Below, piece by piece: positions 4,036 to 11,679 of a stretch of DNA of 34,339 bases. Within the stretch, counting starts at the first letter, position 1. Every line of letters starts with the position of its first letter. Made by a program: the position numbers and the translations under genes. The notes under the pieces were generated by a model. The model was not told the origin of the DNA, searched no databases, and saw only the letters and a list, made by a program, of their open reading frames with translations. This DNA comes from a bacterium (GTDB lineage: Bacteria; Patescibacteriota; Minisyncoccia; UBA6257; JAGOQP01), in assembly GCA_021814695.1 (NCBI GenBank), contig JAKAHY010000008.1:1-34339 (forward strand), given 5' to 3'.

Positions 4036-4179
4036 TTTACAGAATTAATAGGTAATCAATTTTATTTTTCGACAAAATTCAGATAATTTTTTGAGTTTCT
4101 GAAAGCCATCCTTTTATTATTATCGACCCGCTGCTTCATCGGTGAGGACGCATCAGCAAGCTAATAATCAGAACGACTC

Positions 4180-4462
4180 TTGTTATGAATTTAGGTACGG
4201 ATTAGTACCGATTAGACGGATTCATACGGATTTTTTATCCGTATCCGTATCAGTCCGTATTAATTTGTTCAATCCGTACAATTTCGTATTACTTTCTAAC
4301 GTTTGTGAGGCAACTTAAAACATTTTATCCGGTGCAACTTTGACTATCGTGCTTTCATTTGTTCGTGGGCCCGTAGGCCAATCATGACTGCTTTGCTTTT
4401 CGTATCTAATTGTTTTTTGTTCAATCCGTATCCATCCGTTTTGATCCGCATGAATCCGTATC
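4180..4462. repeat. Degenerate ATCCGTAT-type short repeat cluster in the S-layer upstream region
   Basis: ATCCGTA/TACGGAT occurs many times: ggtacggatt, catacggatt, atccgtatccgtatcagtccgtat, aatccgtac, aatccgtatccatccgtt, gatccgcatgaatccgtatc. Confidence 0.55.
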
Positions 4463-4464
4463 AA

Positions 4465-4597
4465 ATAAAAAACTCACTTTTCAGTGAGGCGCTCTAAACA
4501 CAACTCGCACTAGCTACTATAAATAGTGACTAGTTAAGAGGAGTAGTTCCGCCTCACCCCCCGCTTCATTGCAGGGGACAGAACTTATTCAGTTATA
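4465..4597 (-). ncRNA. Candidate structured small RNA (about 130 nt) or long-range attenuator
   Basis: Minus strand: consensus promoter (TTGACT-18 bp-TATACT, extended -10 TG), then hairpins CCCCUGC/GCGGGG and ACUAGUCACUA/UAGUAGCUAGU, ending in CTCACT-GAAA-AGTGAG-TTTTTTATTT. No ORF. Confidence 0.6.
4467..4488 (-). terminator. Rho-independent terminator of the small RNA candidate
   Basis: CTCACT GAAA AGTGAG followed by TTTTTTATTT on the minus strand. Confidence 0.75.
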
Positions 4598-4602
4598 TTT
4601 CC

Positions 4603-4632
4603 AGTATACACGCTCCCCATAAAATAAGTCAA
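4603..4632 (-). promoter_or_regulatory. Sigma70-type promoter of the small RNA candidate
   Basis: -35 TTGACT (revcomp 4627-4632), 18-bp spacer, -10 TATACT (revcomp 4603-4608) preceded by TG (extended -10). Confidence 0.65.
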
Positions 4633-4790: not shown

Positions 4791-5726
4791 TTACTTTTTA
4801 AGCCTAAAGAAGGAATTGGGGCCACCGGTCCCTATCCGCTCTATAATACCCTTATCAACAAGCCTTTGGACGTCGTACCGGATGGTCCTTTCGCTGATTC
4901 CCGGCATGGATTGGATAACGTCTTTTATATGGCAGAGCGTCCGTTTGGAAAGAATCTTCACCAAAATCTCATTTCTCTCTTTAAAACCTATAGACGCCTC
5001 AAATCGGTTATTTCCGGGTGTTTTTGGCTGACTATCGGCCGACTGGCTCTTATTTTCATTCAGTTGAGCACTTGCCGGACTTTCTTGCCGGACTATTTCT
5101 TTGGATTTAGCATCCCTTGCCGGACTTTGATTTTGGCTGGGAGCCGGAGCATAAAATATCTCTTTTTTCTCAAAAACAGCTGCCGATTGAACCTCAGCTA
5201 TTGGAGTGGGGTTTGTTTTTGAAAATTGTTGAGGCTTGTCCTTGCCGGACTCTTGCCGGACTTGCTTGTTAACCTCCGGAACGTCTTTGGCTTCTTGGTT
5301 TAGAGGAGCCGAACCATCTGCCGGCTGTGATTTGTTTAGGGAATCGCTTATTGATCTGATTATCTCCGAAATCCTCATCGGCGGACGGGAAAATGACTCC
5401 TCTATATTTGGAGCGGTTTCGGGATTTTTTGCCGATTCAATCATCCGCATCTTGCAGTCATTGAGTTCCAATATCGCCGAACGCAAATTCCCTATTTCCC
5501 GAAGGATAACCGAGGAGTTGACCTTATTGATGTCTTTTACCTGAGCGCCAAGCCGAACCATTTCCTCAAGCCCGTCTAAAGACGCCAAATCTTTGGAAGC
5601 CAGGTAATCCACAGCCTTGTCCTCCAGGACCTGTTTTATTTTGAGGCGGGTGGCGTGTTCAGCAACGCGAAATACGGCCCACACGACCTCAAACGATCTT
5701 TGAACGAAAAATTCCTGGCTGAACAT
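4791..5726 (-). CDS. Winged-helix/DeoR-like HTH protein with long disordered linker
   Basis: 311 aa. C-terminal wHTH: FKERNEILVKILSKRTLCHIKDVIQSMPGISERTIRYDVQRLVDKGIIERIGTGGPNSFFRLKK. Helical N-terminus; Pro/Ser/Gln/Lys-rich middle. Confidence 0.75.
   Translation of the reverse strand: MFSQEFFVQRSFEVVWAVFRVAEHATRLKIKQVLEDKAVDYLASKDLASLDGLEEMVRLGAQVKDINKVNSSVILREIGNLRSAILELNDCKMRMIESAKNPETAPNIEESFSRPPMRISEIIRSISDSLNKSQPADGSAPLNQEAKDVPEVNKQVRQESGKDKPQQFSKTNPTPIAEVQSAAVFEKKEIFYAPAPSQNQSPARDAKSKEIVRQESPASAQLNENKSQSADSQPKTPGNNRFEASIGFKERNEILVKILSKRTLCHIKDVIQSMPGISERTIRYDVQRLVDKGIIERIGTGGPNSFFRLKK
5071..5262. repeat. Five exact copies of the 11-mer CTTGCCGGACT inside the wHTH linker
   Basis: Copies at 5071-5081, 5084-5094, 5116-5126, 5241-5251 and 5252-5262 (the last two in direct tandem). 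Confidence 0.85.
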
Positions 5727-6037: not shown

Positions 6038-6625
6038 ATGGACGATATCTCAGGCTATAAAATTAAAGACGATTCCGAGGACAACTCCCCCGACTCTCTT
6101 CCGCCAAAGATGAATAAAAAACGCTTATTTAAATTTACCCTTATTTTTGTCGGGATTATGATTTTGATCGGAGGTGGATATCTGGTTTGGAATAATTATC
6201 TAAGCCCATCGGCTCAATTTGCCCGCAGGGCGGCTGCAAACTATCAAAAATACCTCGACCAGCAGAGCAAGTACGAAGCGGCGATGACTGCTGATGCTTA
6301 TGGCGGCCAAACTCCGGAAGAGACCATATCTATGTTCAAAGAGGCTCTTATAAAAAAGGACGTTGAATTGGCCAGTAATTATTTTTTGCTGGACGAAGAC
6401 GGAGAAAAGAATCCGTTGATAAAACAAAATCTGCAGAAACTTTTTGACAACAACCAGATACAAAAAGTGCTTGATGTAATAAATAATTTAAAACCATCAC
6501 AGCGTGACACCGGAGATGGCGGGTTAAAAGAATTTGTAGTCTTGACCCAACAAGGATTTGTAGACTATTCAATGACATTAAAACTCAATAAATACTCAAA
6601 CGTATGGAAAATAGAAAGTTTGTAA
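6038..6625 (+). CDS. Hypothetical single-TM membrane-anchored protein
   Basis: ORF 6008-6625, probable start MDDISGYKIKDD at 6038. TM helix FKFTLIFVGIMILIGGGYLVW; soluble C-terminal domain. Overlaps the start of the next gene. Confidence 0.7.
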   Translation: MDDISGYKIKDDSEDNSPDSLPPKMNKKRLFKFTLIFVGIMILIGGGYLVWNNYLSPSAQFARRAAANYQKYLDQQSKYEAAMTADAYGGQTPEETISMFKEALIKKDVELASNYFLLDEDGEKNPLIKQNLQKLFDNNQIQKVLDVINNLKPSQRDTGDGGLKEFVVLTQQGFVDYSMTLKLNKYSNVWKIESL

Positions 6626-9600
6626 TATTTTTGGCCCCGGTAATCGCACTGGGGCTTTTTCTTGCCTGGCCGAAAATAAGCTTGGGATATGATACCGGAA
6701 CTCACGAGTTTTTGACCGATACAGCAATCCGACTTTATGACAAAAATTATCCCCAAAATAAAATAGATTCGGCTTTAAATTCATTTGTTTTGGATGGAAC
6801 AAGGAGAGAGGACGACCCTCCCCGGTGGATGAACCATTTTTATGACCCCGTTTATGAACGGGGACTTAGCCAGGATAATGCAATTGACCCTCTATATAAA
6901 CTTGGTAACTGGCAGGAATCAAAGCTTTGGGCGCAGGATGGGACAAACCAAAATAATATAAAATATTCTCCTATAATCGCGACAATACTTTCTTCAATTC
7001 AATCGGGAAAGATAGAAAAATTCTTTCCGACAGCTGATTTTACCTGGAACGAAGCTCTCCGTTATTGGATCCAGGGCGATAAGGAGATGGCAATGTTTAC
7101 CCTGGGCCACATTTTGCATTTAGTTCAGGATGTTTCAGTCCCGGACCATACCCGAAACGACCCCCATCCGGGAGATAGTCCTTATGAAAATTATTCGGCT
7201 CAATATACCCTTTCCAACCCCGATAACGATCTGTCTCAATCTGTATCCAAAAACCCCCTTGTTTCTCTTTCCGATTTAAATTCATATTTTGTTCAACTGG
7301 CAAATTATTCCAATAATAATTTCTACAGCAAAGACACTATAGGAATACAAAGCGGCTATTCTTCGCCTAGCTCAGAAGAGTATAATCCCGTAAATATTAA
7401 TGGTCAGATGGAATACTATGGTTTGAAAAAAGATAATTTAGGCAATGAATATCTATTGGTATTAAAAAAATCTCTCAATAATAATTTGGTAGTAACAAAT
7501 AATAACGATGTCATTATTGATGATGGAAAGATAGAGTATGACTACTGGAGACTCCTTTCTCCAAAAGCAGTTGAATACAGCGCCGGAGTAATAAATCTCT
7601 TTTTTCAAGACGTTGAAAAAAATAAAAATAATCCCGAATTTACACAAAAAGAAAAACCTTCTTTTTTGGGACAAGTTACCCAAACAGTTCAAAACGGATA
7701 CAATGCGGCGAAAAATTTTGTATTAGGAGTTTTTGGATCCGGACAATTTGAGCCGATAGCAGAAGTCAATGTTAACAACCCGGCCGATACCTCAAACGCC
7801 GACCAAAACACAAATCAGGGAAACAGTGCGATCACGTCGGAGAATCCACAACCAAACGGCCAAAATAATATCAGCGGAAATAAAACCGAAAAAACATACA
7901 AAGTAACCAGAGTGATTGACGGCGATACGATAGTTTTGGAAAACGGAACCGTTGTGCGCTATATCGGAATTGACGCTCCGGAACTTTCCGATACCGAAAG
8001 CAAAAGCGATTGCCTGGCAAAAGAGGCCCGGGAGAGAAACAAACAATTAGTGCTCAGTAAAGAAGTCCGGCTGGAATCTGGTCCGCAAAAAACCGATAAA
8101 TATGACCGAACTCTGGCCTATGTTTGGGTCCAGAATATAGACGCCAATGCCGTCCTTATAAAAGAAGGGTTCGCTTATGCCTATAATTTCAAAAATGCCC
8201 ATCCAAGAGAAGACGAGTTTGCCGAGCTCCAAGAAGAGGCCAAGAATGCAAAAGCTGGTATTTGGGGAGAATCCTGTGCCGCCTCGTCCACCAATAAAAG
8301 CAACAAAACATCAACCAGCACTCAAAGTGAGCCGCCCAAAACAACTGATCCCGCTAAACCCGTGGCATGTTTGTATTCAACAACTCAGCCCCCATCCCAT
8401 TCCGGAATTCAGATAAACGAAGTTGCTTGGATGGGTTCGGCAAATAGCGCCAGTGACGAGTGGATTGAGCTCAAAAATACCTCAAGCTCGGAAGTGAATC
8501 TTTCCGGATACTGGCTTATCGGCAGAGATAATCAGATAGAAATAAATTTAAGCAGCGGAAGCTCCACATCAATTGGGCCTTCGGCATTTTATTTGCTTGA
8601 GAGAAGCAACAATGAGTCCGTTCCCGGAGTCACGGCTGATATTATTTATTCGGGATCGCTAGGAAACTCAAATGAGGGGCTCAGATTATTTTCTCCAGGA
8701 TGTATCCTTGTCGATGAAGTTTTGGCATCATCCTCATGGCCAGCTGGAGATAATGCTACGAAAAAGACGATGGAAAGGGACCGACAAGGCTTTGGCTGGC
8801 ACTCATCGCTTGGAGCTGGTGGAACACCAAAACAAGAGAATTCAATTCCATCAGGAATCACTTGGACCGGGAGTGGCGGTGGATACACGTCCCAAACTAA
8901 TTCTGCGGCGTTATCTACCGCCTCTTCGTCTGATACCACTCCACAATTCTTTCCCGTTGCAATCAATGAAATAATGTATAACCCGGAAGGTACCGACACA
9001 AACCGAGAATGGATAGAAATCCTAAACACCGCATCAACATCTGTAGATATTTCCGAATGGAGACTTTTTGAGAATGACACCGCTCATAGACTAAATTTAA
9101 TCTCGGGAAATTTTGTGTTGCAACCCGGAGAATTTGCCATAATTGCCGATGATGGAGATCAGTTTAAAATTGATTATCCTTTTTTTTCGGGAAATCTATT
9201 TGATAGTTCATTCTCATTAAATAATGAAGGTGAGGTAATTTCTTTAAAAAACGGGGATCTGAAAATTGACGAAATTTCATACTCGCCTTCCGGCGGCGCC
9301 GATGGTAACGGAAAATCGCTTCAGAAATTTTCCGATAACTGGGAAGAGTCACTGCCCACTCCCGGAAAAGAAAATTTAATTGATGCCTCAACCGACCGCT
9401 TTTCACATGCCCCATCACATTTATTAATAAGCGAAATTCAGGTTGATGGCGAAGGTCCGGATGATGAATTTGTTGAAATTTATAACCCAACACTAAATCC
9501 CATTTCGCTTTCGGATTATTCGATCCAGTATATTAGCGGCAAAGCTACAACAACAAAGAATGTTTATAAAAAAATAATTGATGCTCCATTAACCGTCGCT

Positions 9601-11679
9601 CCTTTTGGTTTTGCTCTTTTTGCAAATAAAGCTGGAATTTTCTCTCAAAATTCAGATGTAAATTATTCATTTTCTCTATCCGGAGAATCCTCCGGTGGTA
9701 TAATTTTGCTTTCAAATTCTTCCGGAACAATAGAATCGCTGAATCAGAATGAAATAGTCGATTTAGTTGCATATGGAAACACGGAAATGCCCGGAATTAC
9801 TAAAGCTATAAAACCGGAAAATAACCAAAGCATCGAGCGTAAGGCATTAAGTAATGACTACTGCACCTCTTCTCAAAATAAAGGAGAGTTTCTGGGAAAT
9901 GCCTGCGACACAAATGATAACGAATACGACTTTGAATTACGTTTAAATCCCCGCAGACAAGGACTATCCAACCTTGCTGAACCCAGAACAGCTCCAAATC
10001 CGGCTCAAAACCTTTCTATTTCATATGCTCCTGGATCAACTAATATTTCAGCCTCATGGCAGGCTCCAGCCGAAAATGGCGCCTTTGGACCATTCACCTA
10101 CAAAATAATTGATTCCGATACCGATACTGTATTAGCAACAACTACCGCGCTCACAAATGAAACTTTAATTGATGAAGTCGGGAGAGATTATGCTATTGCA
10201 CTGACAGCTGCCGACAAAGAAGGATTGGAATCGCTGACAGCCACCAGCTCAATAACAGTCCCTAGTTACATAAAATCACTGAGTATATTCAAAAATCCCC
10301 AAAGTTCAAACGATTACGTATTGGAAGGAAGTTATGATCAGCTACCACTGATTTCCAATCCGAATGCAAACGGAGATATCCTCGTATTTTTTATAAACAA
10401 AGATGCCCCAAAAGAACCCAGCCTTGCGGGAGGCTATCCTTCAGGAGAATCTAGAGACGGACTGATTCAAGCCGACTATCGCCATTGTTCCGGAATTTCC
10501 GGAAGCCGTGATTTTTTGGCATTAACACAAAATCCTTGTCCCCAGGGAGGAATGATGACCGAAGCGCTACCGCAAGAGTATCTGGAGGATAAAATATTTT
10601 CCCTAAAAATTTCTCCGGAGAGCTCTTTAGTCTCATCGGATTATTTCACGATAGCATTCTATACGTTTGAACATTCCAATTTGTGGAGTGGAGGAACCGA
10701 TATTTACCGGATAGCGGCGGTCGATAAAACAAAATATTATTTTAGCGATATTACTCCTACACACTCATCTCCGATTCAAATCCAAAATTTTACTGCCGAA
10801 CTTCACGAACAGGATTCGACAAACAATTCCTATGCTCTGCTTAAATGGGATGACACGACCGATGCCGACAGCATCGATAAGTCTCTAATGTACGAATACA
10901 ATATTTCAAAAAATAATACCTCGCTAGATGACAGCGGGTGGATAGAAATTAAAAGAGAACTCGCTCAAACATCCGATGGACAAGGAGGGGTGACAACAAC
11001 TCAGATCGGACCGCAAATCCCCTTGCTGGAATCCGGCAATTACACTTTTTATCTGCGTGCTAAAGACGAGCTGGGACTCACATCGACGTCTTCAACTTCA
11101 ACCGTAGAAATTATTATTCCTAGTTTTATTACCGGAATTCAAGATGAGACTTGCAACTACTGTAACACAACAAATTTTGCCACCATTCAGGGATCGGCAA
11201 ATCCTTATATGGCAGGCCAAGTATTCACCCTGCAATCTCCAACTAAAATAAGCGAAATTCAGATAGAGCTTCACAACTTCGCTGCGCCAAGCGATATGAA
11301 TATCCCGCCATCAAACTTTGACGCAAAAATATCCATCAATTCCATGGACGACTCAAGTGATCCCAATGTTGGACTTCAGGAGATATTTTCAACAAACGTC
11401 ACAAATCTTCCGGCGCTGACGTTTCCAAACAAAAACTATACAACCGTCAAAATTCCGTCTCCAGTAAATCTGCAACCGGGAACTTATTTTATAAAATTAG
11501 AAACAATTGGAGGCTCCCTAAGTCATCCCTCACAAGGAATTGCTTTTTCAACGGTGGGATCGGACAAATATTCACAAGGACGGGCATATTTTGTCTATTC
11601 TACGGCCGAATATCCGCCTTCTTTATGGTCCCCGGTAGAGCTAAATATGTATTTCCGAATATTTGGCGCCAGTCAGTGA
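6604..11679 (+). CDS. Giant secreted multidomain protein: zinc-dependent phospholipase C/S1-P1-like, thermonuclease (SNase), three lamin-tail (LTD) domains, fibronectin-like region
   Basis: 1691 aa. Signal/TM; GYDTGTHEFLTDTAIRLYD..ILHLVQDVSVPDHTRND (PLC-like His/Asp pattern); YKVTRVIDGDTIVLENGTVVRYIGIDAPELSD..DKYDRTLAYVWV..YAYNF..ELQEEAKNAKAGIWGE (SNase). LTD motifs: IQINEVAWMGSANSASDEWIELKN, VAINEIMYNPEGTDTNREWIEILN, LLISEIQVDGEGPDDEFVEIYN. Confidence 0.85.
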   Translation: MENRKFVIFLAPVIALGLFLAWPKISLGYDTGTHEFLTDTAIRLYDKNYPQNKIDSALNSFVLDGTRREDDPPRWMNHFYDPVYERGLSQDNAIDPLYKLGNWQESKLWAQDGTNQNNIKYSPIIATILSSIQSGKIEKFFPTADFTWNEALRYWIQGDKEMAMFTLGHILHLVQDVSVPDHTRNDPHPGDSPYENYSAQYTLSNPDNDLSQSVSKNPLVSLSDLNSYFVQLANYSNNNFYSKDTIGIQSGYSSPSSEEYNPVNINGQMEYYGLKKDNLGNEYLLVLKKSLNNNLVVTNNNDVIIDDGKIEYDYWRLLSPKAVEYSAGVINLFFQDVEKNKNNPEFTQKEKPSFLGQVTQTVQNGYNAAKNFVLGVFGSGQFEPIAEVNVNNPADTSNADQNTNQGNSAITSENPQPNGQNNISGNKTEKTYKVTRVIDGDTIVLENGTVVRYIGIDAPELSDTESKSDCLAKEARERNKQLVLSKEVRLESGPQKTDKYDRTLAYVWVQNIDANAVLIKEGFAYAYNFKNAHPREDEFAELQEEAKNAKAGIWGESCAASSTNKSNKTSTSTQSEPPKTTDPAKPVACLYSTTQPPSHSGIQINEVAWMGSANSASDEWIELKNTSSSEVNLSGYWLIGRDNQIEINLSSGSSTSIGPSAFYLLERSNNESVPGVTADIIYSGSLGNSNEGLRLFSPGCILVDEVLASSSWPAGDNATKKTMERDRQGFGWHSSLGAGGTPKQENSIPSGITWTGSGGGYTSQTNSAALSTASSSDTTPQFFPVAINEIMYNPEGTDTNREWIEILNTASTSVDISEWRLFENDTAHRLNLISGNFVLQPGEFAIIADDGDQFKIDYPFFSGNLFDSSFSLNNEGEVISLKNGDLKIDEISYSPSGGADGNGKSLQKFSDNWEESLPTPGKENLIDASTDRFSHAPSHLLISEIQVDGEGPDDEFVEIYNPTLNPISLSDYSIQYISGKATTTKNVYKKIIDAPLTVAPFGFALFANKAGIFSQNSDVNYSFSLSGESSGGIILLSNSSGTIESLNQNEIVDLVAYGNTEMPGITKAIKPENNQSIERKALSNDYCTSSQNKGEFLGNACDTNDNEYDFELRLNPRRQGLSNLAEPRTAPNPAQNLSISYAPGSTNISASWQAPAENGAFGPFTYKIIDSDTDTVLATTTALTNETLIDEVGRDYAIALTAADKEGLESLTATSSITVPSYIKSLSIFKNPQSSNDYVLEGSYDQLPLISNPNANGDILVFFINKDAPKEPSLAGGYPSGESRDGLIQADYRHCSGISGSRDFLALTQNPCPQGGMMTEALPQEYLEDKIFSLKISPESSLVSSDYFTIAFYTFEHSNLWSGGTDIYRIAAVDKTKYYFSDITPTHSSPIQIQNFTAELHEQDSTNNSYALLKWDDTTDADSIDKSLMYEYNISKNNTSLDDSGWIEIKRELAQTSDGQGGVTTTQIGPQIPLLESGNYTFYLRAKDELGLTSTSSTSTVEIIIPSFITGIQDETCNYCNTTNFATIQGSANPYMAGQVFTLQSPTKISEIQIELHNFAAPSDMNIPPSNFDAKISINSMDDSSDPNVGLQEIFSTNVTNLPALTFPNKNYTTVKIPSPVNLQPGTYFIKLETIGGSLSHPSQGIAFSTVGSDKYSQGRAYFVYSTAEYPPSLWSPVELNMYFRIFGASQ

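Follow-up and report, generated by a model that had tools for sequence, protein, structure and literature searches.

What does the short non-coding unit upstream of an S-layer-like gene in a member of the Patescibacteria do? This is a huge and mostly uncultured group in which gene regulation is almost unknown, and its surface layer faces the host. We analyzed a 34,339-nucleotide stretch of DNA (contig JAKAHY010000008.1, hereafter the window), in which this unit had been predicted to be a small RNA that forms either a terminator or a long-range stem. We consider it likely, with a probability of about 0.7, that the unit is a cis-acting attenuator of the S-layer gene, in which an anti-antiterminator, an antiterminator and a terminator would compete and a GUGAGG loop would serve as the sensor.

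The RNA unit in the window

A promoter, a non-coding stretch of approximately 130 nt and a canonical intrinsic terminator were present on the minus strand at positions 4632 to 4467, as had been predicted, and the parts of this unit and its neighbors are listed in Table 1. The promoter-like sequence, TTGACT-18-TATACT at 4632 to 4603 (-), would place the 5' end of the RNA near 4596 (-). This sequence made 10 of 12 matches and promoters were kept in relatives, where a -35/-10 match of at least 9/12 was found within the 70 nt upstream of the RNA at 43 of 88 loci compared to 12% of shuffles, but the score in the window alone was at the level of chance (5 promoter-like sites versus 5.3 expected in the 3-kb stretch scanned). 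The segment GTGAGGCG (4557 to 4550) was perfectly complementary to CGCCTCAC (4491 to 4484), which contains the left arm of the terminator. The minimum-energy fold of the window RNA consisted of this pairing with the terminator opened (-45.5 kcal/mol, z -4.2), none of 200 shuffles reached so low an energy, and the ACUAGU..GCUAGU hairpin was enclosed by the pairing, so that the original prediction was correct for each of these elements. It had not included P1 (4585 to 4579 with 4551 to 4545), which frames GTGAGG, nor P2 (4577 to 4558), nor the CCTCAC loop of the S-layer leader (4147 to 4142). With regard to a possible leader peptide, 11 family RNAs were inspected by eye: the window RNA has an AUG-initiated frame of 11 codons that begins in P2, a hairpin missing from most relatives.

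Table 1. Positions of the RNA parts and neighboring genes in the window
Feature	Position	Strand	Basis or remark
S-layer-like gene, signal peptide, PG_binding_1 domain, 1098 aa	739..4035	(-)	putative controlled gene
Conserved leader hairpin (model R2 match), CCUCAC 4147-4142 in apical part, GGGUCGA 4129-4123	4109..4174	(-)	
Intrinsic terminator, stem 4488-4473, right arm C (GUGAG, 4477-4473), then UUUUUU 4472-4467	4467..4488	(-)	
Segment B, CGCCUCAC, partner of A (antiterminator) or C (as terminator left arm)	4484..4491	(-)	fold and covariation
P3, variable linker hairpin between A and B	4509..4534	(-)	fold; sequence not conserved
P1 3' strand, CGGAACU; initial bases also lengthen A:B pairing	4545..4551	(-)	pairing and covariation
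Segment A, GUGAGG, within P1 loop	4552..4557	(-)	parsed relatives
P2, optional inner hairpin, CCCCUGC..GCGGGGG, missing in most relatives	4558..4577	(-)	fold and relatives
P1 5' strand, AGUUCUG, anti-antiterminator hairpin	4579..4585	(-)	pairing and covariation
-10 element, TATACT	4603..4608	(-)	promoter scan
-35 element, TTGACT	4627..4632	(-)	promoter scan; promoter enrichment upstream of RNA in relatives
DeoR-like HTH (PF08220) gene, upstream, syntenic in relatives	4791..5726	(-)	

The RNA had not been recognized as a member of any known family, and comparison with Rfam 15, including 6S RNA and the known riboswitches, agreed with this. At the gathering threshold the whole window yielded nothing but one tRNA, a local search to E<=10 at the RNA locus gave sub-threshold matches only, none of them relevant and all taken as chance, and the RNA loci of 18 relatives gave only tRNA at E<=0.1. 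No report of such an RNA was found in searches of the literature on riboswitches, non-coding RNAs, RNA motifs and S-layers of the Patescibacteria or CPR.

Occurrence across the order and linkage to the S-layer gene

DNA similarity searches within the family found one convincing relative, G007 (the match in G012 was 19 nt only), and the RNA was therefore tracked first with a sequence pattern and later with covariance models. S-layer orthologues were present in 11 of 13 family genomes, and all 11 of these loci had the RNA upstream as well as a second conserved hairpin shortly before the start codon. Each family RNA contained P1 (e.g., GUUCUG/CGGAAC) framing GUGAGG and a terminator with a left arm complementary to GUGAGG, P2 being an optional addition. 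A covariance model made from eight family RNAs (R1) detected the RNA in 19 of the 244 genomes of the order; 10 of the 11 new loci preceded the start of an S-layer-like gene by eye, and the contig of the remaining one ended too early. With a model made from nine of the loci from this step and with P2 left out (R3), the RNA was detected in 108 of the 244 genomes at E<=0.05, mostly once per genome and most commonly in the form GAUUCAG-A-GUGAGG-CUGAAUC ... CAGYCUCGC-loop-GCGAG-UUUU. Approximately 12 of the weakest matches were left out of the locus set, and of the 114 loci examined 86 passed a strict parser, corresponding to 88 RNAs in 84 genomes; 18 of the 28 rejected loci still had the S-layer gene. 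Tandem pairs of the RNA were found at two loci, L105 (G022), where both copies precede one S-layer gene, and L104 (G020), where the contig is too short for the gene to be seen. Second, weak matches in the same genome (G211, G144, G217, G240, G017 and G024) had no S-layer gene and were taken as false. Outside the order, R3 gave four matches among 383 class genomes, all with E values of 0.004 to 0.009, and three among 322 phylum genomes, each of these sets containing a few dozen order genomes. These are the numbers expected by chance at E<=0.01, and none of the four class-level loci had an S-layer gene, so an occurrence outside the order was rejected.

The position upstream of the S-layer leader was retained across relatives. 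The S-layer gene lay downstream of 83 of the 88 parsed RNAs on the same strand, at a median distance of 223 nt (112 to 793), and in four of the five misses less than 330 nt of DNA remained. Without the 11 family loci that had been picked via the S-layer gene, the gene was downstream of 72 of 77 RNAs. When the best S-layer match of each genome was taken instead, 93 of 143 had a same-strand RNA match upstream within 1.6 kb, compared to none in control positions, and the eight RNA-negative S-layer loci that were inspected by eye all had a variant GUGAGG hairpin, six of them with a terminator arm that was still complementary. In G001 and G008, inserted genes on the same strand separated the S-layer gene from the RNA (by eye).

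On its other side, the RNA was adjacent to a same-strand DeoR-like HTH gene in 42 of the 50 loci with enough DNA. The sequence TCCGGCAA occurred five times in the linker-coding part of this gene in the window (5072 to 5260, minus strand) and 12 times in the window as a whole versus 1.4 expected, and CCGGCAA was present in at least three copies in the upstream stretches of 16 of 48 relatives. Divergent from the HTH gene, positions 6604 to 11679 (+) encode a 1,691-aa protein that combines three lamin-tail domains with a staphylococcal-nuclease-like one.

Three pairings and the proposed switch

Five RNAs with an ambiguous P1 register were removed before pairs were counted, leaving 83 RNAs, 75 of them distinct. 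GUGAGR lay within the P1 loop in all 83, and segment A was identical in the parsed relatives except for G005 (GUGAGA), the parser having permitted GUGAGR only. Three pairings were supported by covariation: P1, which presents GUGAGG in its loop; the antiterminator, in which this loop and the P1 3' strand pair with the terminator left arm; and the terminator itself. The following figures are guides, since the shuffles ignore relatedness; the models, the alignments and the parser are also biased towards these structures. P1 was paired in 97.3% of cells across the 75 distinct RNAs, and each of the six standard pairs occurred at position 2 (6 of 7 pairs were demanded by the parser). In a parser-independent alignment (A7), P1 and the terminator were 94.9% paired and showed 11 double-sided cells, a number reached in 0 of 500 shuffles. 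Positions 1 to 5 of A:B were paired in 75 of 75 RNAs, position 6 in 71, position 7 in 64, position 8 in 54 and position 9 in 50. At position 8, which reaches into the P1 3' strand, pairing was as high in none of 2,000 shuffles, and at positions 7 and 9 pairing among the 75 RNAs was not above that of shuffles. Positions 1 to 5 of B:C were paired in all 75, which the parser imposed, with GC in 58 and AU in 17 at position 2. Double-sided changes within the family included GUGAGAC/GUCUCAC in G005.

These results support the predicted choice between a terminator and a long-range stem, of the kind made by attenuators or riboswitches, and the paired segments were conserved across the order. The antiterminator pairing that excludes the terminator was conserved with three exceptions: two of the eight A:B pairs were broken in G001, and at L206 (G099) and L212 (G100) the terminator arm had, by eye, little complementarity left to GUGAGG, with the leader CCUCAC retained. 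Upstream, the covarying hairpin P1 competes with the antiterminator, as one of its strands also takes part in A:B, and an intrinsic terminator lies between promoter and gene on the same strand.

A promoter match of at least 9/12 occurred within 70 nt upstream of the leader stem in only 1 of 37 loci, versus 4% of shuffles, in a test made on short-gap loci (the gap in the window is approximately 300 nt), and no minus-strand promoter-like site was found in the window between 4603 and the S-layer gene. As a promoter precedes the RNA and none was detectable before the leader, read-through is the simplest source of the S-layer mRNA, which is probably made in this way. Nearest-neighbor energies predicted the A:B state to be more stable than the P1 state before C exists in 79 of 83 RNAs and to beat P1 plus the terminator at full length in 74 of 83, which suggests that a factor able to hold A would be required for termination.

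Taken together, the three covarying pairings, the promoter before P1, the lack of a detectable one before the leader and the same-strand linkage to the S-layer gene support an attenuator at the level of sequence, and from them we infer that termination is regulated, in which direction, and what the sensor may be. Points that weigh against this reading are the predicted preference for A:B at full length, the shuffle-level pairing at A:B positions 7 and 9, the exceptions in G001, G099 and G100, and the inserted genes in G001 and G008. Transcription would begin just upstream of P1, which would fold first and keep GUGAGG in its loop as an anti-antiterminator. If A were free, it would pair together with the initial bases of the P1 3' strand with B, and with this antiterminator in place polymerase would read on into the leader and the S-layer gene itself. 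If A were instead held in P1 by something, the B:C terminator would form and an RNA of approximately 130 nt would be released. The original term "small RNA" would thus be half right: it fits the terminated product, and the evidence favors a cis attenuator.

The architecture has parallels in known systems. In the pT181-type attenuator (PMC4878617), a 5' hairpin likewise carries the antiterminator segment, which holds the 5' part of the terminator when there is no partner and gives it up when an antisense RNA kisses the hairpin loop to loop. The antisense RNA of pT181 is fully complementary, whereas the complement here, the only one examined, is a 6-nt loop within the gene's own leader; this gene is a chromosomal S-layer gene in Patescibacteria, and no sequence relation is claimed. 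The Listeria Rli51 element in the mpl 5'UTR (PMC11394854) is an attenuator with a more stable antiterminator; its terminated RNA is short, and premature termination requires a loop to which an RNA partner binds. Unlike in our case, that partner is a separate sRNA, the organism and gene are different, and the abstract reports no order-wide conservation. The leader of Bacillus subtilis rplJL (PMC4538822) makes the same three-way choice among anti-antiterminator, antiterminator and terminator and is bound by L10(L12)4, whereas a protein of this kind is not known for the present RNA, which precedes an unrelated gene. By analogy, the element would work like these three systems, and it belongs to none of them.

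Candidate sensors and alternative readings

The likeliest sensor would be the GUGAGG loop, recognized either by the complementary CCUCAC loop of S-layer leaders or by some small ligand or protein. In the interval from the terminator to the start codon, this complement, CCTCAC, was present in 64 of 83 leaders, including 54 of the 72 from outside the family, compared to at most 12 for each of its other 29 permutations and 4 for GTGAGG. It was mostly unpaired, with a mean of 0.83 (n=63) versus 0.43 for nearby GC-rich 6-mers (n=309), and the family leader hairpin itself covaries. Leader binding could act in trans, as self-sensing feedback, or through a fold within the read-through mRNA. In the first case, the CCUCAC loop of finished S-layer mRNA would kiss the nascent GUGAGG loop, block the antiterminator and halt transcription, and the terminated RNA could in turn bind the leader. 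We regard this self-sensing only as a tentative proposal. Pairing of the two loops was rejected as a universal rule, as CCTCAC was missing from 19 of 83 leaders, 8 of them in f2 (G011 has UUAACC), and no covariation was found between the two loops at the relatives' loci.

Other features of the leader were also recorded. GGUCGR occurred one to four times in all 83 S-layer leaders, the first copy often following CCUCAC at a distance of about 13 nt and others lying near the start codon, and seven of the nine window copies of TACGGAT (3.3 expected) were located in the spacer between terminator and leader (4196 to 4460). A hammerhead ribozyme, suggested by the resemblance of 4166 to 4112 to CUGAUG..GAA..GUC, was rejected, as its core letters vary in relatives and Rfam gave no match.

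It is possible, if doubtful, that the element is instead a true riboswitch or protein-binding leader, in which P1 and the GUGAGG loop bind a small molecule or a protein such as the product of the neighboring HTH gene or the S-layer protein, the leader complementarity being incidental. B varies among relatives (CUCAC, CUCGC, CUCAU) while A stays GUGAGG, and the loop therefore seems fixed beyond the need of pairing with B. The frequent HTH gene upstream and the precedent of L10(L12)4 on the rplJL leader (PMC4538822) point the same way. However, CCTCAC in the leader loops would then need a second explanation, P1 is small for a metabolite aptamer, and the gene product looks structural rather than metabolic.

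A free-standing small RNA acting in trans is an unlikely explanation. Its terminator would always work, and its GUGAGG seed would pair with the CCUCAC loops of an S-layer mRNA transcribed from a different promoter, altering the translation or stability of that mRNA. The unit does have its own promoter and terminator, the excess of unpaired CCTCAC in the leaders would fit a target site, and G099 and G100 kept this site although their terminators lost the complement. Such an RNA would, however, not need strict same-strand linkage upstream of one gene, no promoter signal precedes the leader in short-gap loci, and the leaders without CCTCAC would have no target; the covariation of B with the P1 3' strand at position 8 is explained by alternative pairing. 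We consider it very improbable that a transcription factor recognizes GTGAGG/CCTCAC at the DNA level, with the RNA folds arising as by-products, since the word, although it recurs as the same duplex in RNA, terminator and leader, is located in loops of hairpins with covarying stems. That an ordinary terminator resembles an upstream stretch by accident, as the chance-level promoter score of the window by itself would allow, is refuted by the order-wide conservation, the covariation and the fixed gene context, and the conservation of the RNA is not due to chance.

The cis-acting attenuator would be a widespread and undescribed RNA control element for the surface layer, for which models and coordinates are ready. 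If the self-sensing proposal is true, S-layer output would be set by the level of its own mRNA, without a protein, across this order of Patescibacteria, and an mRNA controlled through loop-loop contact with its own leader would represent an unusual, protein-free form of feedback.
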